Positions 21,037-32,866 of a DNA stretch of 44,531 nt are shown here, one piece after another. Position 1 is the stretch's first letter. Each line of letters opens with the position of its first letter. The notes under the pieces are model-generated. The model saw only the letters and a program-made list of their open reading frames with translations. It did no database searches and had not been told where the DNA came from. Both the position numbers and the translations under genes were made by a program. The stretch is from NCBI GenBank assembly GCA_020720385.1, contig DYOR01000012.1, forward strand, positions 1 to 44,531, written 5' to 3'. Origin of the DNA: Rubrivivax sp. Its GTDB lineage: Bacteria; Pseudomonadota; Gammaproteobacteria; Burkholderiales; Burkholderiaceae_C.

Positions 21037-21115
21037 GGTGCATGGCCCCCCTCGGCTCGCCTGGACGTCCGTCCGGCGCCCTCACTCGTTTGCGCATTTC
21101 TCTAGGAGTCCACCC

Positions 21116-21811
21116 ATGTCCGTTGCCGAACACAGCATCGCGGGCGCGCAAGCACGCGGCCACGGCTTCCTGGCGTCCTCGGTCGGCCGCAAGATCATCA
21201 TGGCCGGCACCGGCGTGATCCTCTTCGCCTTCGTCACCGTCCACATGATCGGCAACACCCAGGCCTACATGGGTGCCGAGTCCTTCAACGGCTACGCCAA
21301 GTTCCTGCACACCATGCTCCACGGTGGCGGCATCTGGATCTTCCGCGCGGTGATGCTTGTGGTGACGCTGGTGCACGTCTGGGCGGCGCTCTCGCTGACC
21401 CTGTCCAACGAGGCGGCGCGCCCCGTCGGCTACCGCCTGCTGCGCCCCAGCGCCTCGACCTTCGCCTCGCGCATGATGCGCTGGAGCGGCATCGTCGTGG
21501 GCATCTTCATCGTCTACCACCTGATGCACCTGACCACCGGCGCGGCGCACCCCGCATTCGACCCCGCCGACCCCTACGCCAACTTCGTCAGCGGATTCAA
21601 GGTGCCGGCGGTGGCCGGCTTCTACATCTTCGCCCAGTTCTGCCTGGGCCTGCACATGTGGCACGGCGTGTGGAGCTTCACCCAGACGCTCGGGCTCGCC
21701 CATCCCCGCTACGACACCCTGCGGCGTGCCTTCGCCGCCGGGCTGACCCTGCTCGTGGTGGGCGTGAACATCTCCTATCCCCTCGCCGTCCTCGCCGGCG
21801 TCATCCACTGA
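21116..21811 (+). CDS. sdhC: Type-B succinate dehydrogenase/fumarate reductase cytochrome b
   Basis: This 231-residue, five-helix diheme cytochrome b anchors the complex to the membrane and exchanges electrons with quinone. Histidines typical of the b558 family are visible in FVTVHMIGN, LVHVWAALSL, IVYHLMHLT and LHMWHGVWSF, enough for two hemes in one polypeptide. This is the single-subunit type-B anchor found in Bacillus, Wolinella, Bacteroidetes and Chlorobi. Betaproteobacteria normally use a two-subunit SdhC/SdhD anchor. The start is ATG 21116 behind AGGAG. Type-B enzymes usually work with low-potential quinones, often as fumarate reductases. Direction here is not provable from sequence. 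Confidence 0.93.
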   Translation: MSVAEHSIAGAQARGHGFLASSVGRKIIMAGTGVILFAFVTVHMIGNTQAYMGAESFNGYAKFLHTMLHGGGIWIFRAVMLVVTLVHVWAALSLTLSNEAARPVGYRLLRPSASTFASRMMRWSGIVVGIFIVYHLMHLTTGAAHPAFDPADPYANFVSGFKVPAVAGFYIFAQFCLGLHMWHGVWSFTQTLGLAHPRYDTLRRAFAAGLTLLVVGVNISYPLAVLAGVIH

Positions 21812-21829
21812 CCCGAAGGAGAGACCTCC

Positions 21830-23749
<1,920 letters not shown>

Positions 23750-23760
23750 TGAACTGAGCC

Positions 23761-24549
23761 ATGGCCAAGCACATCAATCTCACCCTGCAAGTCTGGCGGC
23801 AGAAGAACGCCGCCAGTGAAGGCGAGTTCGTCGACTACCCCGCCAAGGACATCAGCCCCGACATGTCCTTCCTGGAGATGCTCGACGTGGTCAACGAGGG
23901 TCTCATCCGCAAGGGCAAGGACCCCATCGCCTTCGACCACGACTGCCGCGAAGGCATCTGCGGCACCTGCGGCATGGTCATCAGCGGCCAGCCCCATGGC
24001 CCCAAGGAGCGCACCACCACCTGCCAGCTGCACATGCGCAGCTTCAAGGACGGCGAGACGCTGACCCTCGAGCCCTGGCGCGCCGAGGCCTTCCCGGTGA
24101 TCAAGGACCTGGTGGTCGACCGCGGCGCCTTCGACCGCATCATCGCCGCCGGCGGCTTCGTCAGCGTGCCCACGGGCTCGCCGCAGGACGCCAACGCCCT
24201 GCCCGTGCCCAAACAGAACGCCGACCTGGCCATGGATGCCGCCGCGTGCATCGGCTGCGGCGCCTGCGTCGCTGCCTGCCCCAACGCCAGCGCCATGCTC
24301 TTCGTTTCCGCCAAGATCAGCCAGCTCGCCCTGCTGCCCCAGGGCCAGCCCGAGCGCTACACGCGCGTGCGCGACATGATCGCGCAGATGGATGCCGAAG
24401 GCTTCGGCACCTGCACCAACCACGCCGAATGCGAAGCCGTGTGCCCCAAGGGAATCAAGCTGGAGAACATCGCGCGCATGAACCGCGACTTCATCAAGGC
24501 CAGCCTCAGCTACCGACCGGCCACCGGCGACGGCGGCGGCACGGGCTGA
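23761..24549 (+). CDS. sdhB: Type-B succinate dehydrogenase/fumarate reductase Fe-S protein
   Basis: This 262-residue subunit carries the three-cluster chain between flavin and heme. The [2Fe-2S] ligands are in [10 protein letters not shown] plus a later cysteine (TTCQLH). The [4Fe-4S] ligands are in [12 protein letters not shown], and the [3Fe-4S] ligands in [15 protein letters not shown]. All ligands are present. It is last in the sdhCAB set, and a strong terminator starts 32 bases after its stop. Confidence 0.95.
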
Positions 24550-24655: not shown

Positions 24656-25135
24656 TCAGGTGCCGGCGCGCTTGGCCATGGGCGAGTGCAGGTCGTGAAT
24701 CTGCATGCGTGCGGCCTGCAGGCGCTCGGACACCACGCCGAGCATGCGGTACATGAGCGCGAAGCCGAAGGCACGGTCCTGACGGCAGGCTTCGAACATC
24801 GCCGGGCCGTCGAAGGCCAGCGCCTTCACCGGCTCGAGCACGCGCGCCTGGAAATACTTGCCGCGGCCCATCATGATCGCCGACCAACCCAGTTCGTCGC
24901 CCGCGCTCAGCGTTTGCACGCGCAGCACGTAGTCCGGCTCGACCATCTCCAGCGCCACGCGCCCTTCGACGATGAGGTAGAAGTCGTGGCAGTCGTCCCC
25001 CTCGCGGAAGATGACCTGGTCCTTCTCGAAGCTCACCTCGCGGGCGAGCGAATGCAGGATCTCGATATGTTCCGGCAAGAACTCGTCCACGAAGGCGTGC
25101 TTGCGGAGCATGGACAGCAGCGGCGTAGAAGACAT
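24656..25135 (-). CDS. Cyclic-nucleotide-binding-domain protein without DNA-binding domain
   Basis: This 159-residue protein consists of a CRP/FNR-type beta-roll (about 10-125). KDQVIFREGDDCHDFYLIVEGRVAL is the typical roll motif, broken here only for naming. It is followed by a short helix. It ends where a helix-turn-helix would begin, so it is not itself a transcription factor. The classic phosphate-binding arginine signature is not clear (GWSAIMMGRGK stands in that region), so ligand binding is uncertain. It is the last gene of the minus-strand block, downstream of the KOR genes. A regulatory or electron-transfer-sensing role is possible, but nothing in the sequence fixes it. Confidence 0.8.
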   Translation of the reverse strand: MSSTPLLSMLRKHAFVDEFLPEHIEILHSLAREVSFEKDQVIFREGDDCHDFYLIVEGRVALEMVEPDYVLRVQTLSAGDELGWSAIMMGRGKYFQARVLEPVKALAFDGPAMFEACRQDRAFGFALMYRMLGVVSERLQAARMQIHDLHSPMAKRAGT

Positions 25136-25210: not shown

Positions 25211-27430
25211 CTACATGTAGGGTTTGGCGCGTTCGATCAGGGCCTCCAGCCCCGGCTCCTTGGGATTGTGCGGCTTGCCGGGGTGGATGATGGCCACCTG
25301 GCACGCTTCTGCAGCCTCCACCATCTGTGCGTAGGTGCCCGCGTTGATGTCCTTGATGTAGGCCTGCTTGTTCTCGTTGTAGCCGAACATGCGGTCGTTG
25401 ATGAGCTGGCACTCGTTGCAGCTCGGGCAGCGCGAGGTCTCGATCCAGGCCTCGTCGGAGGGTGGCTTGTCCGCCACCGGCGCGGGTTCGGCCGCGGGCG
25501 CTGCTGCCGCAGCTGCCGCTGCGGCCGGCGCAGGCACCGCCGCGGGCTGAACCGCGGCGCTGGCGGCTTGCGCCGCGCGCTCGGCGCGCTCGCGCGCCAG
25601 GGCGCGTTCGGTGTGCGAATCGTTGATGCCGGCATGCTCCTGCAGGCGGTGCCACAGCAGCAGGCAGCGCTTGGTCGCCTGCATCATCGCCGCATCGACG
25701 ATGACGCGCTGCAGGCGGTCCTGGCCGTCCACCGCCAGCAGGTAGGGCAGGCGTGTCGCGGCCAGGTTCTCGGGCAAGGCCAGCCAGTCGCCCACCGGGA
25801 GCATGGCGGCATGCCAGCGCTCGCGCGGCACGACCGCGAAGTGCTTGGCGTGGCGGCTGTCGCACAGGGCAAAGTCGGCGTAGGTGAAGGCGAGCTGTTC
25901 GACGGCGCGCTGCAGACCCTCGTCGGCGTACTCGAAGGACTCGAGGGCCCAGTCTGCCGCGGCGTTGCGGTTGTTCTCGAGCGAGAAACGCTCGGCCCAG
26001 TTGGCGCCGGCGGCGGCGTCGTAGGTGAACGAGGGGAAGGCCCGCGACTCGGCGGCCACGGCCGCGGTGAGGTAGCGCTCCAGCCCGGCCGCCGCATGCG
26101 GCGAACCCGCGTACACCGCGAAGAGCGACGGGCCGGCGCAGGCCATGCCGCGTGCCACGCGCTGGCGCAGCGGGTACAGCGCCGAGCTGGCGGCCTGCAT
26201 CACGAACATGCCGCCCAGGCCCATCGCCGTGGTCGCCAGGCGCGCGCTGCGCACGCCGAAGGCGAAGTGGCCGGTGCCGATCGAGGCTTCCTCGAGCAGG
26301 TCGGAGACCTGCACCAGCACCTTCACCGGCATGCCCGAGGAGAGCATGTCGAGCAACGGGGCGTTCTCGGGCGCCTCGTTGCGCTCGGGCGGGATGCACA
26401 CCAGGTAATCGGGCATCAGCGCCAGGTCGTCGGCGGTGAGCGAGTGCACGTCGTAGCGCGCGAACACGGCATCGTGCTCGCCTTCCACGTAGTGGCCCAC
26501 GACCTCGAGCTCGGCCACGGCCATGGCCTTGACGAATTCGGCCACGGCCGGCAGGCGGTTGCGGTAGGCCTCCATGGCGGCCGCGCATTGCTCGAAGGCG
26601 TAGTTCGCCTCCATCGCTGCCGCCGCCCCGGCGCCGCGCGCCGGGTAGAAGGTCTGCTTGGCGAGCACGCCCAGCGCCCATTCGATGCGCCCACGGCGTG
26701 CCGCGGGCAGCTCGTCCACCGGGGCACGGCGCGCCACCAGGCGCGACATGGCGGCAAAGTCGAACACGTCCCGGTGGCCCGAACCCACCGCCTGCTGCAG
26801 CGCCTGCGGCTGCTGGCCGGCCTGGGAGTGCACCCAGGCGGCGCGCTTGATGTCGGAAAGCTTGCGCATCAGGGCGTCGACGCGGGCGTGGAAGGCACGC
26901 GCCTTGTTCGCCTGCGCGTGGCGCCACGCCTGCCTGAGCAGCTTCGCCGGCAGAGCCTCGTCGCAGCCCGCGAGCACGCCGCTCACATCCTGCGCCGCAT
27001 CGCCCGGCGAGGCGGTGGTGTGGGTCAGCAGGCCCGCCACCGAGGTCTCGTCGCCACCCATGCCCAGGTGCTCGGCCGCTGCGGTCCACAGGTCCGCCAG
27101 CGTCCCCTGCGCCCCGCCGGCGACCATGCTGCGCATCTCCCGCTCCAGCCGCAGCAGGCTCTTGCGCAGGTGTTCACCCTCGATGCCGCGCGGCGCCAGC
27201 TTGTGCAGCACCTGGTTGACGACGCTGGACAGCGAGAGCGCGAAGCCCTCGCCGCCGGGCTCGTCGATGAGCACCAGCGGGTAGTCGTGGCGCAGCCGGT
27301 TGAGCTCGCGGTAGGGCGCGAGCAGGGCCGGACGCAGCGTGGCAACGTCGAGGGCGGCAAAGCCCTCGGCGCCACGTTGGCCGGTCATGTGAAAGAGCTG
27401 GTGTTCCTGGTGCTTCGTGGGCACGTCCAT
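25211..27430 (-). CDS. Large KOR-linked protein with C-terminal ferredoxin domain, unrecognised N-terminus
   Basis: This 739-residue protein has three parts. Residues 1-610 form a soluble region I cannot assign to a named family. It has segments such as ARGMACAGPSLFAVYAG and SRAFPSFTYDAAAG, and I faintly recall similar blocks beside 2-oxoacid:ferredoxin oxidoreductases in other phyla. Residues 619-667 are an Ala/Pro-rich linker. Residues 668-715 form a single-cluster ferredoxin domain with Cys 668, 671, 674 (CPSCNEC) and Cys 710. It follows korB by 45 bases on the same strand. KorA and KorB here lack a ferredoxin-type cluster motif, so this protein may be the electron-accepting subunit of the complex. 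The start is ATG 27430. Confidence 0.6.
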   Translation of the reverse strand: MDVPTKHQEHQLFHMTGQRGAEGFAALDVATLRPALLAPYRELNRLRHDYPLVLIDEPGGEGFALSLSSVVNQVLHKLAPRGIEGEHLRKSLLRLEREMRSMVAGGAQGTLADLWTAAAEHLGMGGDETSVAGLLTHTTASPGDAAQDVSGVLAGCDEALPAKLLRQAWRHAQANKARAFHARVDALMRKLSDIKRAAWVHSQAGQQPQALQQAVGSGHRDVFDFAAMSRLVARRAPVDELPAARRGRIEWALGVLAKQTFYPARGAGAAAAMEANYAFEQCAAAMEAYRNRLPAVAEFVKAMAVAELEVVGHYVEGEHDAVFARYDVHSLTADDLALMPDYLVCIPPERNEAPENAPLLDMLSSGMPVKVLVQVSDLLEEASIGTGHFAFGVRSARLATTAMGLGGMFVMQAASSALYPLRQRVARGMACAGPSLFAVYAGSPHAAAGLERYLTAAVAAESRAFPSFTYDAAAGANWAERFSLENNRNAAADWALESFEYADEGLQRAVEQLAFTYADFALCDSRHAKHFAVVPRERWHAAMLPVGDWLALPENLAATRLPYLLAVDGQDRLQRVIVDAAMMQATKRCLLLWHRLQEHAGINDSHTERALARERAERAAQAASAAVQPAAVPAPAAAAAAAAAPAAEPAPVADKPPSDEAWIETSRCPSCNECQLINDRMFGYNENKQAYIKDINAGTYAQMVEAAEACQVAIIHPGKPHNPKEPGLEALIERAKPYM

Positions 27431-27475: not shown

Positions 27476-28465
27476 TCAGGCCTTGCGCTTGCCGGTGGCA
27501 GCGGCTTCGGGCCAGATCGTGTACTTGTCGAGCTCGCCGTTGAGCCCCGAGCGCGTGAGCTCGGGTGAACGCGGCGCCCCTGCGTTGCGCAGTTCCTCGT
27601 AGCACGGGATCTCGGGGTTGTGATAAAGGATGCCCACCGGAATCGGGTCCTCGCACGAGGCGATCTCGCGCGCCGTGTTCATGTCCAGCGGGTCGTGCTC
27701 GCGCTGGTTGCGATAGGTGCGGCTGACCTCGGCGCTGGGCTGCAGGCCGTTGGCGTGCGTGAGCAGCAAGGTCTTGCCCGGGTCCTGCAGCCACGGCTCG
27801 AGCAGTTTGGGCAGGAATTCCGGGCAGCGCTGGATCACGCGCACCAGGGAGAATCCGCGGTGATGGAAGGCCTTCTTGATGATGTCGTACAGCGACTCGG
27901 GCATCCAGTCCACGGCCTGGGCGATGAAGGACGCGTTCTGCACCCCCAGCGACACCGTCAGCGGGTTCAGGGCCTCGAGCACCGCACCGCGCGGCGTGGT
28001 GTTGCTCTTCAGCCCGACGGGCGAGGTCGGCGAGGCCTGCTTCTTGGTCAGGCCGTAGACATGGTTGTCATGCAGGATGACCGTCATGTTCATGTTGTAG
28101 CGCAGCGCGTGGATCCAGTGCGCCGCGCCAATGCTGCAGCAGTCGCCGTCGCCGGTGTTGACGAAGACATGCAGGTCGGGCCGCGCCATCTTCACGCCCT
28201 CGGCGAGCGGGAAGGCGCGGCCGTGGATGCCGTGGAAGCCGTAGGTCTTCATGTAGTGCGGGAAGCGGCTGGAGCAGCCGATGCCCGAGACGAACACCGT
28301 GCGCTCGGGCGCCAGGTTTTCGTCGCGGCACAGGCGCTGCACGGCGGTGAGGATGGCGCTGTCGCCACAGCCGACACACCAGCGTGGCACGCCACCCTGG
28401 TAGTCCTCGAGCGAGTGCTGCTCTTCGTGCAGCCGGATGACGCACTGGTCGAGTGAGGAGCCCAT
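27476..28465 (-). CDS. korB: 2-oxoacid:ferredoxin oxidoreductase beta subunit (KorB type)
   Basis: This 329-residue TPP-binding subunit cleaves a 2-oxoacid, probably 2-oxoglutarate, to the CoA ester with reduction of ferredoxin. It has WCVGCGDS (29-36), GIGCSSRFP (61-69), the Mg-TPP motif GDGD (105-108) and DNHVYGLTKKQASPTSP (from 133). It is longer than usual (about 280-300 residues) because of a C-terminal extension after about residue 285. It is two bases downstream of korA. Substrate choice between 2-oxoglutarate, pyruvate and branched-chain oxoacids cannot be settled by motif. A separate PFOR nearby favours 2-oxoglutarate. Confidence 0.88.
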   Translation of the reverse strand: MGSSLDQCVIRLHEEQHSLEDYQGGVPRWCVGCGDSAILTAVQRLCRDENLAPERTVFVSGIGCSSRFPHYMKTYGFHGIHGRAFPLAEGVKMARPDLHVFVNTGDGDCCSIGAAHWIHALRYNMNMTVILHDNHVYGLTKKQASPTSPVGLKSNTTPRGAVLEALNPLTVSLGVQNASFIAQAVDWMPESLYDIIKKAFHHRGFSLVRVIQRCPEFLPKLLEPWLQDPGKTLLLTHANGLQPSAEVSRTYRNQREHDPLDMNTAREIASCEDPIPVGILYHNPEIPCYEELRNAGAPRSPELTRSGLNGELDKYTIWPEAAATGKRKA

Positions 28466-28467
28466 GT

Positions 28468-30378
28468 TCAGCCTTTGCGATTCAAACGGTTAAGAGCGAC
28501 GTCGACGACACTGCCGGGCTTGATGGGCTGGCCACGCGCCTCGCTCCAGCAGTCGATGTCGACCAGGTAGCGCGAACGCAGCATGAGCGCCAGTTGCGAA
28601 TAGCGGCGGTTGTCTTCGTCGATGAGTTCGTCCTGGAGGCTGTCGGACCAGTTGCCTTCGATCGTCATCACGCGCTTGAAGCGCTTGAGGATCTCGCGGA
28701 TGCCCGAGGGCAGCGGCTGAATGAAGCGCAGGTGCAGGGAGCCGACCTTCTGGCCCTGGACACGCAGGCGGTCCACCGCTTCCTCGATGGCGCCCTGGTT
28801 GCTGCCCCAGCCCACCAGCAGCAGGTCGCCCTCGGGCTCGCCGTACACGGGCGGTGTCTTCAGGGTCTTTTGCAGCGCGGCGAGCTTGAGGCTGCGCATG
28901 CGCAGGCCCTCTTCGTTGATCGTCGGGTCGTAGGCGACCTTGCTGAAGCGGTCGTGCGCCAGACCGGTGACGGTGTGCATGCCACCCGGCTGGCCGGGGA
29001 TGAAGCGCCGGGCGATGCCGGTCACTGGATCCCAGTCGTAGGGCTTGGCGCCCTCGGGGATGGGCGTCTGGTCGATCGGCGGCGCGAGCCATTCCTCGCT
29101 GAACTGCGGGCGCACGAAGGGCTGCTGCGCCGTCGCCAGCGAGGCGTCGGTGAGCACCACGACGACCATGTTGAAGGTCTCGGCGATCTTGCGCGCGGTG
29201 ATCATCGAGTAGAAGCAGTCCTCGATGCCGCTGGCGGCCATCACCACCTTGGGCGCGTCACCGTGGCTGCCGAAGACGGCGGCCATCAGGTCGCCCTGCT
29301 CCACCTTGGTCGGCTGACCGGTGCTCGGGCCACCACGCTGCACGTTGACGACGACGAGCGGGATCTCCGCCATCACCGCCAGGCCAATGCCCTCTTGCTT
29401 GAGCGAATAACCCGGGCCCGAGGTGATGGTCACCGCGCAGCGGCCAGCGTACGAGGCGCCGATGGCAAAGGCGCAGGCGGCGATTTCATCCTCGGCCTGG
29501 TGCACCATGCCGCCCACGCGCTCGAAGCACTCGCTGAGGTAATGCGAGGCGGAGGTCGCCGGGGTGATCGGGTACATGGCGCAGATGTCCATGCCCGAGG
29601 CCAGCACGCCGAGTGCCACGGCCGTGTTGCCGCTGATCACGATCTGCGGCTCGGTGATCGGCGGGGCCGGAATGCGGAACTTGAAGTCCAGCGTCTTCTC
29701 GGCCCAGGCGAAGCCGGCCTCCATGAGCTTGACGTTGGTCTGGATGACCTTGGCTTCCTTCTTGCCGAAGATGAGTGCAATCTGCGCCCGCGCCAGTTCC
29801 AGGTCGAAGCTGTAGATGCTGCACAGCACGCCGAGCACGAACATGTTCTTGCCGCGCCGCGGGTCGCTCATCAGGGCACGGCACTCGCGCTCCAGCGGCA
29901 TCTCGATGAGGCGGTAGCCCTTGCCCTCGAGCATCTTCACCGTCTCGAGGTAGGCCGTGGCGATCTTCGCATCCCTGTGCTCGGCCCACACGCTCTCGAG
30001 CATGATGGTGGCGCCGGGCTTGAGCTCGCCGGCCTGCTCGCGGCCCAGGATCACCTGCTCGTTGAAGGCCATCACCAGGTCGGTCTGGTCGCCGCCGTTG
30101 GTGATGCGCTCGGCACCGATGCGGATGCGGATGCCGCTGGCGCCGGCGGTGCTGCGCGCCGGAGGCTGGATCTCGGCGGGGATGATCTCCACCGTCCAGA
30201 TGCCGTTGCCGCTGCGCGCCGCAATGGCCGCCAGCGACTGGCCGCAACGCTGGGCGCCTTCGCCCGAGTCGCTGATCACCTCGACGATGTGTTCGGTCAG
30301 TTGGACCGCCGGTTTGCGGCTGGGCACATCGCCCACCGGTTCGGTGCGGTCGAGGACTGCAGCGTCGTTCTTGGTCAT
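28468..30378 (-). CDS. korA: 2-oxoacid:ferredoxin oxidoreductase alpha subunit, gamma-alpha fusion (KorA type)
   Basis: This 636-residue subunit has an N-terminal gamma domain (about 25-215, binding CoA-handling features) fused to the alpha domain (about 245-636). Typical alpha motifs are CAMYPITPATSASHYL, TSGPGYSLKQEGIGLA and NVQRGGPSTGQPTKVEQGDL. The fused gamma-alpha layout is the usual KorA form in aerobes and microaerophiles. It is 48 bases downstream of the unfused NfnB gene and two bases upstream of korB, consistent with one transcript from the promoter near 33050. In the oxidative TCA cycle it would replace 2-oxoglutarate dehydrogenase and save electrons as ferredoxin. Confidence 0.9.
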   Translation of the reverse strand: MTKNDAAVLDRTEPVGDVPSRKPAVQLTEHIVEVISDSGEGAQRCGQSLAAIAARSGNGIWTVEIIPAEIQPPARSTAGASGIRIRIGAERITNGGDQTDLVMAFNEQVILGREQAGELKPGATIMLESVWAEHRDAKIATAYLETVKMLEGKGYRLIEMPLERECRALMSDPRRGKNMFVLGVLCSIYSFDLELARAQIALIFGKKEAKVIQTNVKLMEAGFAWAEKTLDFKFRIPAPPITEPQIVISGNTAVALGVLASGMDICAMYPITPATSASHYLSECFERVGGMVHQAEDEIAACAFAIGASYAGRCAVTITSGPGYSLKQEGIGLAVMAEIPLVVVNVQRGGPSTGQPTKVEQGDLMAAVFGSHGDAPKVVMAASGIEDCFYSMITARKIAETFNMVVVVLTDASLATAQQPFVRPQFSEEWLAPPIDQTPIPEGAKPYDWDPVTGIARRFIPGQPGGMHTVTGLAHDRFSKVAYDPTINEEGLRMRSLKLAALQKTLKTPPVYGEPEGDLLLVGWGSNQGAIEEAVDRLRVQGQKVGSLHLRFIQPLPSGIREILKRFKRVMTIEGNWSDSLQDELIDEDNRRYSQLALMLRSRYLVDIDCWSEARGQPIKPGSVVDVALNRLNRKG

Positions 30379-30426: not shown

Positions 30427-31932
30427 TCAGACCACGCGCACGCGGGCGCAGCCATGCTCTTCGCGGGCGATGCCGAAGAGCGTGTCGCTGGCCTCGCCGG
30501 CGTAGACGGCGTTGCTGTCACGCAGGCCCAGCCAGGCCTTCATGTGGCGCGCCGCCTTGCGCCCTGCACCCATGGCCTTGATCACGGTGGCCGCACCGGT
30601 GACGATGTCGCCACCCGCCCAGACGCCCGAGAGCGAGGTGGCCAGGTTCTCGTCGGCCTCCAGGTAGCCCCACTTGTTGAGCTTGATCTTGCAGGTCTGG
30701 CCGATGATCGGGTTGGCGTTGGTGCCGATGGCGAACACGACCATGTCGCACTCGAACTCGAATTCGCTGCCCGGCACCTCGACGGGCTTGCGCCGGCCCG
30801 AGGCATCGGGCTCGCCGAGTTCCATGCGGATGCAGCGCAGTGCGCGCACGCCACCCTTGCCGTCGTCGAGGATCTCCACCGGGCTGGTGAGCCAGTTGAA
30901 GTCCACGCCTTCTTCCTCGGCGTGGTGCACTTCCTCGACGCGCGCCGGGGCTTCCTTCTTCGAGCGGCGGTAGATGCAGTGCACGCTGTTGGCTCCCAGG
31001 CGCAGCGAGACGCGCAGCGCGTCCATCGCTGTATTGCCCGCACCGATCACGGCGACGCGCTTGCCGGGTTGCAGCGGGGTGTCGAAGCTGGGGAAGAAGC
31101 GCGCTTTCATCAGGTTGCAACGCGTGAGCAGCTCGTTGGCCGAGAGCACGCCATTGAGCGACTCGCCGGGGATGCCCATGAAGCTCGGGTAGCCCGCACC
31201 GGTGCCCACGAAGACCGCATCGAAGCCCATCTCGGTGCGCATCTGCTCGAGCGTGAAGAGTCGCCCGACGAGCGTGTTGCACTCGAAGCGGATGCCAAGC
31301 TGGCGCAGCTTCTCGATCTCGGCGTCGATGACGTCGTTGGGCAGGCGGAAATCGGGGATGCCGTACTTGAGCACGCCACCGGGTTCGTGGAAGGCCTCGT
31401 AGACCACCACCTCGCAGCCCGCCTTGGCCATGTCGGCCGCACAGGCCATGCCTGCGGGGCCGGCACCGACAATGCCCACGCGCAGGCCGTTGGGCTCCAT
31501 GTACGGCACGTTGGACCAACCCTCGCGGATGGCCATGTCGCCGACGAAGCGCTCCAGCCGGCCGATGGCCACGGGCTCGAGCGTCGCACCCACGGTGCAC
31601 ACGCCCTCGCACTGGCTCTCCTGCGGGCACACGCGCCCGCAGATCGAGGGCAGCAGGTTGGTGTCGGTGATGATCTCGTAGGCGCCGTGGTGGTGCTTCT
31701 CGGCGATCTTGCGGATGAAGCCCGGGATGTCGATGCTCACCGGGCAGCCGGCGACGCAGGGCTCGTCGGCGCACTGCAGGCAACGCTCGGCTTCGACCAG
31801 CGCGTCCTCGAGCGTGTAGCCCAGCGACACCTCGCTGAAATTGCGCGCACGGACCTTGGGATCCTGCTCCCGCGCCGGCGTGCGCGCCTGCGGGATGGTG
31901 CGGATGGTCTTCTTCTTCGCTTTCACGGCCAT
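30427..31932 (-). CDS. nfnB: NfnB/SudA-like NADPH oxidoreductase (GltD family), unfused copy
   Basis: This 501-residue flavoprotein resembles the glutamate synthase small subunit. The N-terminal Fe-S region has ERCLQCADEPCVAGCPVSIDIPG and CGRVCPQESQCEGVC. The first nucleotide-binding site is VGIVGAGPAGMA and the second VAVIGAGNTAMDALR, followed by YRRSKKEAPAR. It pairs with the NfnA-like gene 10 bases upstream. Such pairs act as NADH-dependent ferredoxin:NADP oxidoreductase (NfnAB) or sulfide dehydrogenase (SudAB). No glutamate synthase large subunit is in the window. The start is ATG 31932. A second version of this module exists as a fusion at 38766-41126. Confidence 0.87.
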   Translation of the reverse strand: MAVKAKKKTIRTIPQARTPAREQDPKVRARNFSEVSLGYTLEDALVEAERCLQCADEPCVAGCPVSIDIPGFIRKIAEKHHHGAYEIITDTNLLPSICGRVCPQESQCEGVCTVGATLEPVAIGRLERFVGDMAIREGWSNVPYMEPNGLRVGIVGAGPAGMACAADMAKAGCEVVVYEAFHEPGGVLKYGIPDFRLPNDVIDAEIEKLRQLGIRFECNTLVGRLFTLEQMRTEMGFDAVFVGTGAGYPSFMGIPGESLNGVLSANELLTRCNLMKARFFPSFDTPLQPGKRVAVIGAGNTAMDALRVSLRLGANSVHCIYRRSKKEAPARVEEVHHAEEEGVDFNWLTSPVEILDDGKGGVRALRCIRMELGEPDASGRRKPVEVPGSEFEFECDMVVFAIGTNANPIIGQTCKIKLNKWGYLEADENLATSLSGVWAGGDIVTGAATVIKAMGAGRKAARHMKAWLGLRDSNAVYAGEASDTLFGIAREEHGCARVRVV

Positions 31933-31942
31933 GGTGCTGTTC

Positions 31943-32866
31943 CTACTTGCCGGCGGCGGGCCGGGTTGCATTGCTGGCCTGGGCCTCGACCTTCGCGGCA
32001 GCGGCCTGCAGGCGGCAGCTCTCCTCGAAGCGTTGGTTGGCCTCGGCCTCGGAGGGCTTGAAGCGCGTCAGGCGCGCGTTGAGATCGTCGAAGTCCACCA
32101 GGTGGCCGTCGAAGTCCGGACCGTCGACGCAGGCAAAGCGCACCTGGTCGCCGATCTTCACGCGGCAGCCGCCGCACATGCCGGTGCCGTCGACCATCAC
32201 CGAGTTCACGCTCACCACCGTGTGGATGCCGTGCGGGCGCGTCACTTCGGCGCAGCCCTTCATCATCACCGGGGGACCGATGGCGACGACTTCATCGATG
32301 TCCTTGTGCTTCGCAATGGCCTGCTCCAGACCGACCGTCACGCGGCCGTGGATGCCCGCCGAACCGTCGTCGGTGCAGACGATCAACTCGTCGCACGCGG
32401 ATGCGAACTTGTCCTGCCAGAAGATCAGCTCCTTGGTGCGAAAGCCGATCACGCCGATGACGTAGGCGCCGCCGTCGTGATGCGCGCGCGCCTGCGGAAA
32501 CACCGGGGCCACGCCCAGACCGCCGCCCACGCAGACCACCTTCTTGGCCTTGCCGATGTGGCTGGGGATGCCCATCGGTCCAACCACCGACAGAAGGGTC
32601 GAGCCGACCTGGCAGTCGCGCTGCATCGAGCGCGTGGTCTTGCCCACGGCCTGGATGACCAGGGTGATGGTGCCCTTCTTGGCGTCGAAATCCGCCAGCG
32701 TCAACGGGATGCGCTCGCCGTGTTCATCGGGCATGACGATGACGAACTGGCCCGGCTTGGCCGCCTTGGCCAGCATCGGATGCTTGATCTCGAGCAGGAA
32801 GGTGACGTCGGAAAAATCCTGCCGCGTCACGACCGGGAAGCGGCTGGTCAAGGTTTCGGTATTCAT
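31943..32866 (-). CDS. nfnA: NfnA/SudB-like ferredoxin-NADP reductase subunit, unfused copy
   Basis: This 307-residue protein of the ferredoxin-reductase fold has an FAD domain (about 1-95) and an NAD(P)H domain starting VVCVGGGLGVAPVFPQ. Its C-terminal [2Fe-2S] motif is DGTGMCGGCRV with a later cysteine in RFACVDGPDFDGH. That set (one Asp and three Cys nearby) is characteristic of NfnA. It is encoded directly upstream of nfnB. The C-terminal 40 residues are Ala-rich and variable. It is first in its transcript, with an FNR-like site 180 bases upstream. Confidence 0.87.
   Translation of the reverse strand: MNTETLTSRFPVVTRQDFSDVTFLLEIKHPMLAKAAKPGQFVIVMPDEHGERIPLTLADFDAKKGTITLVIQAVGKTTRSMQRDCQVGSTLLSVVGPMGIPSHIGKAKKVVCVGGGLGVAPVFPQARAHHDGGAYVIGVIGFRTKELIFWQDKFASACDELIVCTDDGSAGIHGRVTVGLEQAIAKHKDIDEVVAIGPPVMMKGCAEVTRPHGIHTVVSVNSVMVDGTGMCGGCRVKIGDQVRFACVDGPDFDGHLVDFDDLNARLTRFKPSEAEANQRFEESCRLQAAAAKVEAQASNATRPAAGK

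Follow-up and report, generated by a model that had tools for sequence, protein, structure and literature searches.

A degenerate PFOR half with a tethered ferredoxin domain, linked to korAB, as a likely electron-transfer subunit

The korAB-linked gene and its operon

We analyzed a 44,531-nucleotide stretch of DNA from Rubrivivax sp. (assembly GCA_020720385.1, contig DYOR01000012.1), here called the window, in which one operon encodes the two subunits of a KorAB-type 2-oxoacid oxidoreductase, two proteins resembling the subunits of NfnAB, and a protein of 739 residues that ends in a ferredoxin domain (Table 1). The body of this protein is descended from pyruvate:ferredoxin oxidoreductase (PFOR) and has lost its catalytic motifs. 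We consider it likely that the protein is a non-catalytic subunit of KorAB, a PFOR-derived docking scaffold whose tethered ferredoxin wires KorB to Nfn or, in related clusters, to Rnf.

Table 1. Features of the operon, in window coordinates (TPP, thiamine pyrophosphate; ORF, open reading frame)
Feature	Position	Strand	Basis
Candidate PFOR-derived pseudoenzyme with C-terminal ferredoxin domain, 739 aa, ATG start	25211..27430	-	ORF, Pfam, profile comparison, structure model
Residues 13-129: remnant of the start of PFOR domain V; first cluster motif lost, second absent	27044..27394	-	hhalign of residues 1-140 against long PFOR 750-879, motif alignment
Residues 150-600: degenerate TPP (beta) domain and following PFOR domain	25631..26983	-	
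Residues 343-390: site of the TPP-binding GDG...NTGG motifs, absent here	26261..26404	-	motif alignments
Residues 618-657: Ala/Pro-rich linker	25460..25579	-	composition 75% Ala+Pro; model confidence low in part
Single [4Fe-4S] ferredoxin domain, C-terminal (C668, C671, C674, C710)	25214..25459	-	
KorB, TPP subunit; GDG...N intact, four proximal-cluster cysteines	27476..28465	-	NCBIfam/Pfam, motifs, PDB search
KorA, fused gamma-alpha subunit	28468..30378	-	TIGR03710, 508 bits, cut-off 482.75
NfnB/NfnL-like (GltD-type) FAD/[4Fe-4S] subunit	30427..31971	-	phmmer 4ylf_B, E 9.9e-170; P. furiosus NfnI 5jca_L, E 2.5e-148
NfnA/NfnS-like FAD/[2Fe-2S] NAD(P)H subunit	31943..32866	-	phmmer P. furiosus NfnI 5jca_S, E 9.2e-90; 4ylf_A, E 1e-66

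An earlier, sequence-only reading of the window had placed a 739-residue open reading frame at this position and predicted an Ala/Pro linker followed by a single-cluster ferredoxin domain, all of which held, down to the positions of the four ligands. The domain, Fer4_13 at residues 664-716, is the only Pfam match at E≤1 and scores 24.8 bits against a cut-off of 24.5; its four cysteines are present in 79/79 sequences of the window type. The other cysteines of the protein are at positions 156, 282, 345, 431, 523 and 589. An NCBIfam scan gave no match at E≤1, so neither TIGR02177 (PorB/KorB) nor TIGR02179 (delta subunit) was recovered, and Pfam, NCBIfam and PDB sequence searches found no known domain in residues 1-610. 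A hemolysin match spanning the linker and ferredoxin region (E 0.77) was dismissed as due to chance. In the structure model, the predicted local distance difference test score is 88 overall and falls below 50 at residues 631-652.

Open frames come cheaply in GC-rich DNA and the frame antisense to this gene is also free of stops. We nevertheless take the gene to be real, because 78 homologues with 44-71% identity align with its product and because the ratio of non-synonymous to synonymous substitution rates (dN/dS), computed for 12 pairs by the Nei-Gojobori method, lies at about 0.1-0.4, which indicates purifying selection (window against L027: dS 0.58, dN 0.20; L072 against L088: dS 0.45, dN 0.04). 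The 79-sequence alignment contains 63 invariant columns, scattered along the protein. Promoters and terminators around the operon showed no excess over shuffled sequences.

The genes are closely packed, with 45 nt between korB and the 739-residue gene, 2 nt between korA and korB, 48 nt between the NfnB-like gene and korA, and an overlap of 29 nt between the two Nfn-like genes. KorB scores 250 bits against TIGR02177 (cut-off 261.9) and has two-subunit 2-oxoacid:ferredoxin oxidoreductases (OFORs) as its closest solved relatives. Its GDG...N motif is kept in every covering row of an alignment from 82 loci (73-78 rows per position), as are C30, C33, C64 and C214, which, going by solved OFORs, we take to be the ligands of its proximal [4Fe-4S] cluster. 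The sequence-only reading had held that KorA and KorB lack ferredoxin-type clusters; this stands in that Pfam finds no dicluster ferredoxin domain in either, and fails on the four proximal-cluster cysteines of KorB.

Descent from PFOR and loss of its motifs

Residues 1-610, for which no family could be named from the sequence, are indeed without one in Pfam and NCBIfam, but profile comparison and fold identify them. Among 150 genomes sampled from the order, 11 had a match to the 739-residue protein at E≤0.001. Three of these (G000, G103, G010) encode the short form, that is, a protein of the window's type. In seven, only the C-terminal part of the query matched, inside a frame of 1640-1801 residues, and none of the seven also has the short form. 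The match in G139 (residues 612-710) is probably an artefact, its neighbour being a gene that, on inspection by eye, looks like a pyruvate dehydrogenase E1; two matches in the family sample (G225, 607-700; G169, 598-666) cover mostly the linker and look spurious. None of these three was counted as an orthologue. Of the long proteins, five (P0006-P0010) were inspected in full. Two were scanned and exceed the cut-offs for POR_N, POR, PFOR_II, TPP_enzyme_C and Fer4_13, with partial matches to TIGR02176 (PFOR; 407 and 412 bits, cut-off 911), and the long protein P0006 matches solved PFORs.

A profile of five short forms matched a profile of five long forms over residues 12-738 (E 1.2e-66). To see whether the ends alone carry this match, we compared segments of the 79-sequence alignment separately with long PFORs. 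Residues 1-140 matched PFOR positions 750-879 (hhalign, E 1.7e-7; three shuffles at 0.35 or above), residues 141-290 positions 1005-1116 (E 5.7e-6), residues 291-610 positions 1175-1503 (E 1.2e-40) and residues 656-739 positions 1562-1641 (E 7.3e-26), in identical order in both proteins. All 21 column-shuffled controls, three for each of seven segments, had E≥0.1. Between the matching blocks, the gaps correspond to the regions of the long form that hold its second domain V cluster motif and its third proximal-cluster cysteine. The best PDB matches of the structure model are PFOR and OFOR beta chains. By collinear homology and fold, the 739-residue protein belongs to the PFOR superfamily by descent, and its residues 1-610 are a degenerate C-terminal half of a 2-oxoacid oxidoreductase.

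In a profile search of 398 genomes from the phylum, the short form was found solely in the window's own genome; elsewhere the matching frames were either long (1651-1698 residues) or of 142-592 residues. Matches on plasmids came from two records (Gemmatirosa, E 4e-19; Persicobacter, E 3e-32) and covered 54% of the query, in its C-terminal part only.

The catalytic motifs of PFOR have not survived in the short form. We aligned three long PFORs with 15 short-form or short-form-like proteins. GDG, NTGG, the first, third and fourth proximal-cluster cysteines and the CxxCxxC motifs of domain V are in register in none of the 15; the first domain V motif is replaced and the second absent in all of them, and the profile match skips the stretch of the second motif. 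The TPP pattern GDG...N is in register in 0/79 window-type sequences and in 0/12 homologues from a sample of the class. A GDG lies out of register near the TPP site in two sequences of each set (L065 and L100; L185 and L191), and a search for GDG...N anywhere in the sequence hit 12/79 and 3/12 proteins, respectively, the GDG of L187 being located elsewhere. In the PFOR of Desulfovibrio africanus the proximal cluster is presumably held by C812, C815, C840 and C1071, and only the equivalent of C815, namely C156, is left in the window type. No TPP or cluster motif of the PFOR body thus remains in register, and judged by its motifs the protein would be a pseudoenzyme.

Besides the ferredoxin ligands, C156 is conserved in 79/79 window-type sequences, C589 in 74/79, C282 in 73/79 and C345 in 66/79. 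We considered a metal site formed by these four residues, but the position of C156 is a tyrosine in 10 of the 12 class-sample homologues, which weighs against it.

Linkage to korAB and to two electron-transfer partners

A scan of genome contigs yielded 221 encoded relatives, of which the best 80 were used as window-type loci. By their record labels, which we give as they stand, these are mostly from Burkholderiales and other Betaproteobacteria, with some from Alpha-, Gamma- and Deltaproteobacteria, Acidobacteria and Thermoleophilia, and metagenome-assembled genomes make up nearly all of them. The 79-row alignment omits L043 (truncated contig) and L066 (no usable frame). Linkage was counted over loci with enough upstream sequence, with L043, L074 and L085 lying at contig ends. 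The 739-residue gene is linked to korAB throughout: korB is directly upstream in 77/77 loci and korA further upstream in 65/65. An NfnB-like gene is in the cluster in 57/59 (exceptions L033 and L041) and an NfnA-like gene in 53/54 (exception L033), so that, these exceptions aside, the order nfnA-nfnB-korA-korB-739 holds in all loci of sufficient reach.

Because ranking by similarity favours close relatives, we added samples of whole genomes; those of the order, family and class all include the window's own genome. In the class sample (369 genomes), KorB occurs at E<1e-100 in 12 genomes, each of which has a 739-like gene adjoining korB; in a thirteenth (G588) the 739-like gene lies at a contig end. 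The three order-sample genomes with KorB at 70% or above are the same three that have the short form. In the family sample (100 genomes), four have KorB at this level, three with the full protein and one (G166) with a remnant. G243, the other sampled member of the genus, has neither the protein nor this KorB clade. Every genome of these samples with the KorB clade, bar the remnant in G166, therefore carries the gene beside korAB. The sequence-only reading had proposed a tethered acceptor or coupling subunit of KorAB, to be given up if the body proved to be an unrelated enzyme or if orthologues lay mostly elsewhere. Profiles and structure model show a degenerate half of a 2-oxoacid oxidoreductase and the orthologues sit next to korB, so that the proposal is supported on both counts.

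The twelve class-sample clusters (L180-L191) reveal a second type of partner. One, L184, has the window order, and its homologue (L184:8152-11067) has three single-cluster ferredoxin domains in tandem, with Ala/Pro linkers between them. In the other eleven, the 739-like homologue has 750-862 residues and follows korB in the ten that reach korB. It is followed by an RnfB-like gene in 11/11 (TIGR01944 above cut-off in the two tested), and this in turn by a second PFOR-like protein, of 1143-1599 residues in ten clusters and cut by the contig end in L191. In the ten (L180-L183, L185-L190; e.g. L183:11214-15071), this protein keeps the two CxxCxxCxxxC motifs of domain V and has neither a YPITP-type alpha motif nor GDG...N; in the alignment its proximal-cluster cysteines and C-terminal ferredoxin are gone, and the two examples tested match POR_N only in part. 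Its motifs thus mark it as a second, presumably dead PFOR, complementary to the 739-like one.

After this gene, rnfC, rnfD, rnfG, rnfE and rnfA follow in order in the eight clusters that are readable further (G577, G581, G350, G595, G282, G414, G465, G466). In those tested, rnfC, D, E and A are above their NCBIfam cut-offs and rnfG is just below (101.8 and 90.9 against 102). Of the other three, L188 and L191 stop at the contig edge, and L190 has different genes in this place. In four clusters (L182, L183, L187, L189) sucC and sucD stand between this gene and rnfC, and they suggest 2-oxoglutarate and succinyl-CoA as the substrate pair. Upstream of korA, six clusters (L182, L183, L187-L190) encode a 2Fe-2S/4Fe-4S protein, a fumarate reductase-like flavoprotein and a NuoF-like protein. 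A search of the 80 window-type loci together with L012 recovered no rnfCDGEA genes at E≤1e-20, and the window's contig gave none at E≤1e-5. In a tree from 310 columns, a branch with 98% support sets the 739-like proteins apart from both long PFORs and second PFOR-like proteins; each of these last two groups forms a clade with 100% support.

Downstream of the 739-residue gene in the window, 75 nt away on the same strand, lies a gene for a 159-residue protein with a cyclic-nucleotide-binding domain (24656-25135) and no other Pfam family above cut-off; a gene of this kind also directly follows the 739-residue gene in L029 and L033. Converging on the operon from the opposite strand (21038-24549) are genes that, by eye from their translations, encode succinate dehydrogenase/fumarate reductase-like cytochrome b, flavoprotein and iron-sulphur subunits.

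Proposed role, alternatives and known systems

KorAB is usually described as dependent on free ferredoxin, and Nfn and Rnf both have an established function as ferredoxin:NAD(P) oxidoreductases. KorB has a single cluster and therefore needs an outside electron carrier. As Nfn and Rnf interchange as partners with the same function while the 739-like protein stays constant, an adaptor between KorB and the partner is the most economical reading, and the protein is probably a cable between a working KorAB and NAD(P)H-making machines. The ancestor would have been the C-terminal half of a PFOR ending in a ferredoxin domain. Its body, stripped of the TPP site, of both cluster motifs of domain V and of all but one of the four proximal-cluster ligands, would survive as a docking scaffold, and the ferredoxin, on its arm of about 40 Ala/Pro-rich residues, would take single electrons from the proximal [4Fe-4S] cluster of KorB. 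The recipient would be a dedicated ferredoxin:NAD(P) oxidoreductase whose genes lie in the same cluster, either the Nfn-like pair of the window type or membrane-bound Rnf, where the second PFOR-like protein may bridge to RnfB through its dicluster, as the gene order suggests. Electrons would thus reach NAD(P) without a pool of free ferredoxin, or a reverse flow would drive carboxylation. We infer the docking, the electron path, its direction and the substrate, the last being most likely 2-oxoglutarate.

Alternatively, the protein could be a ferredoxin carrier dedicated to KorAB that serves another acceptor, such as an aromatic-ring reductase, nitrogenase or a further enzyme, with Nfn and Rnf acting separately on the free pool. 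There is precedent: KorAB supplies benzoyl-CoA reductase in Thauera aromatica, and strains of Rhodopseudomonas palustris carry korAB or the Nfn homologue AadN for their aromatic pathway, according to the accessible part of PMC9973337. We consider this unlikely, given that nfnA- and nfnB-like genes are almost always in the same cluster and are replaced by rnf genes in the other type. Moreover, no nifH was found above cut-off in the window's genome, which is 93% complete, although ring-reductase genes were not searched for. With nifH absent and an ordinary 2-oxoglutarate dehydrogenase E1 (SucA) encoded, the system is more likely an alternative to the E1 enzyme, perhaps at low oxygen, than a donor to nitrogenase.

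The dead body could also bind KorAB as a cap or regulator that keeps oxygen away from the proximal cluster or adjusts activity, with the ferredoxin as part of the cap or as a sensor. In Desulfovibrio africanus, PFOR is said to owe its protection from oxygen to a C-terminal domain, and the carriers of the gene are probably often facultative or aerobic, as record names and SucA in the window's genome suggest. Invariant ferredoxin ligands and the three tandem ferredoxins of one homologue suit electron carrying better, and we regard a cap as very unlikely. That the body kept or gained a chemistry of its own, the former TPP or cluster site now binding a different ligand, substrate or metal, would account for C156, the other conserved cysteines and the invariant columns throughout, but it seems scarcely probable with tyrosine in place of C156 in most class-sample homologues and no TPP or cluster motif in register.

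Several observations nevertheless speak against a KorB-to-Nfn/Rnf adaptor. A simple scaffold offers no reason for the invariant C156 and the mostly conserved C282, C345 and C589. The GDG of L185 and L191 is six columns off the TPP site, so that the loss of TPP binding there depends on the alignment. In the single-contig genome G166 (locus L024) korB is intact (76%), but of the 739 gene no more than the first ~55 residues can be recognised, and G282 encodes the ferredoxin in a frame separate from the 739-like body. Barring sequence errors, these cases raise the possibility that the protein, or its ferredoxin, is not essential. L033 has korAB and the 739 gene without NfnAB nearby, L041 has no NfnB-like match within its 4.7 kb upstream, and in L190 other genes, and no rnfCDGEA, lie between the second PFOR-like gene and the contig end. 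The window's genome also encodes the ordinary SucA, and conserved adjacency to korAB is no proof of a complex.

A broader scenario, which we advance tentatively and whose chances seem close to even, is that PFOR gave rise on at least two occasions to hollowed-out, non-catalytic electron-transfer subunits of an active KorAB, one retaining just the C-terminal ferredoxin (the 739 family) and the other just the domain V dicluster (the Rnf-type neighbour). These would wire KorAB into soluble Nfn or membrane Rnf, the latter then being a 2-oxoglutarate-driven, ion-pumping NAD reductase. If so, KorAB-Rnf would be a new kind of respiratory entry point, and an oxidoreductase would have been converted into an electron-carrying scaffold. 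This gives a testable role to a protein without a family name beyond its ferredoxin tail and a possible answer to how electrons leave the single-cluster, two-subunit KorAB. NAD(P)-linked or ion-pumping complexes, if this is what the clusters encode, would alter the reversibility of this step of the tricarboxylic acid (TCA) cycle and its energetics.

We found no description of the protein in the literature within reach, which excluded supplements and most subscription papers, nor in the accessible parts of PMC2607301, PMC9765128, PMC10892978 and PMC6501319. Parts of related arrangements are on record, as far as the available texts go: in sulphur-oxidising Gammaproteobacteria, dimeric korAB close to TCA genes, with Rnf genes inside separate korABCD-containing reductive TCA clusters (PMC6315080, whose supplementary korAB-locus figure may show some of these genes), and korAB together with sucCD in endosymbionts (PMC11549363). 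The main text of an Nfn review, as available, mentions neither 2-oxoglutarate nor korA, and notes that NfnAB homologues need not bifurcate electrons (PMC6405883).

Among known systems, KorB of the window belongs to the type of the two-subunit OFORs/KorAB (Sulfolobus 5b46-5b48; 6n2n), whereas the body of the 739-residue protein matched no solved chain in a single-sequence PDB search. In Azoarcus evansii, KorAB is reportedly joined to an NADP-reducing flavoprotein in the 2-oxoglutarate:NADP+ oxidoreductase KorABC. Both upstream gene products closely match NfnAB (4ylf; Pyrococcus furiosus NfnI, 5jca). The second cluster type encodes all six subunits of RnfABCDGE and differs from the usual arrangement in that a dead PFOR gene separates rnfB, which joins korAB and the 739-like gene. 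The 739-residue protein is collinear with the C-terminal half of PFOR/NifJ-like proteins of ~1640 residues with a C-terminal ferredoxin (P0006-P0010; L014-L017, L019), sharing the start of domain V, the TPP domain, the domain after it and the ferredoxin I-like C terminus; unlike it, these retain TPP motifs, proximal-cluster cysteines and domain V clusters and have the alpha and gamma parts. In the long PFORs of L014-L017 and L019, whose motifs are intact, ~125 residues separate the second and third proximal-cluster cysteines. From the PFORs of Moorella thermoacetica (6cin, 6cio) and Desulfovibrio africanus (1b0p) the protein differs in lacking the catalytic motifs and in having a ferredoxin I-like domain where they have the domain V dicluster. 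That domain shares the single-cluster fold and CxxCxxC...C pattern of D. africanus ferredoxin I (1fxr) and, unlike it, is fused through an Ala/Pro linker to a large scaffold.
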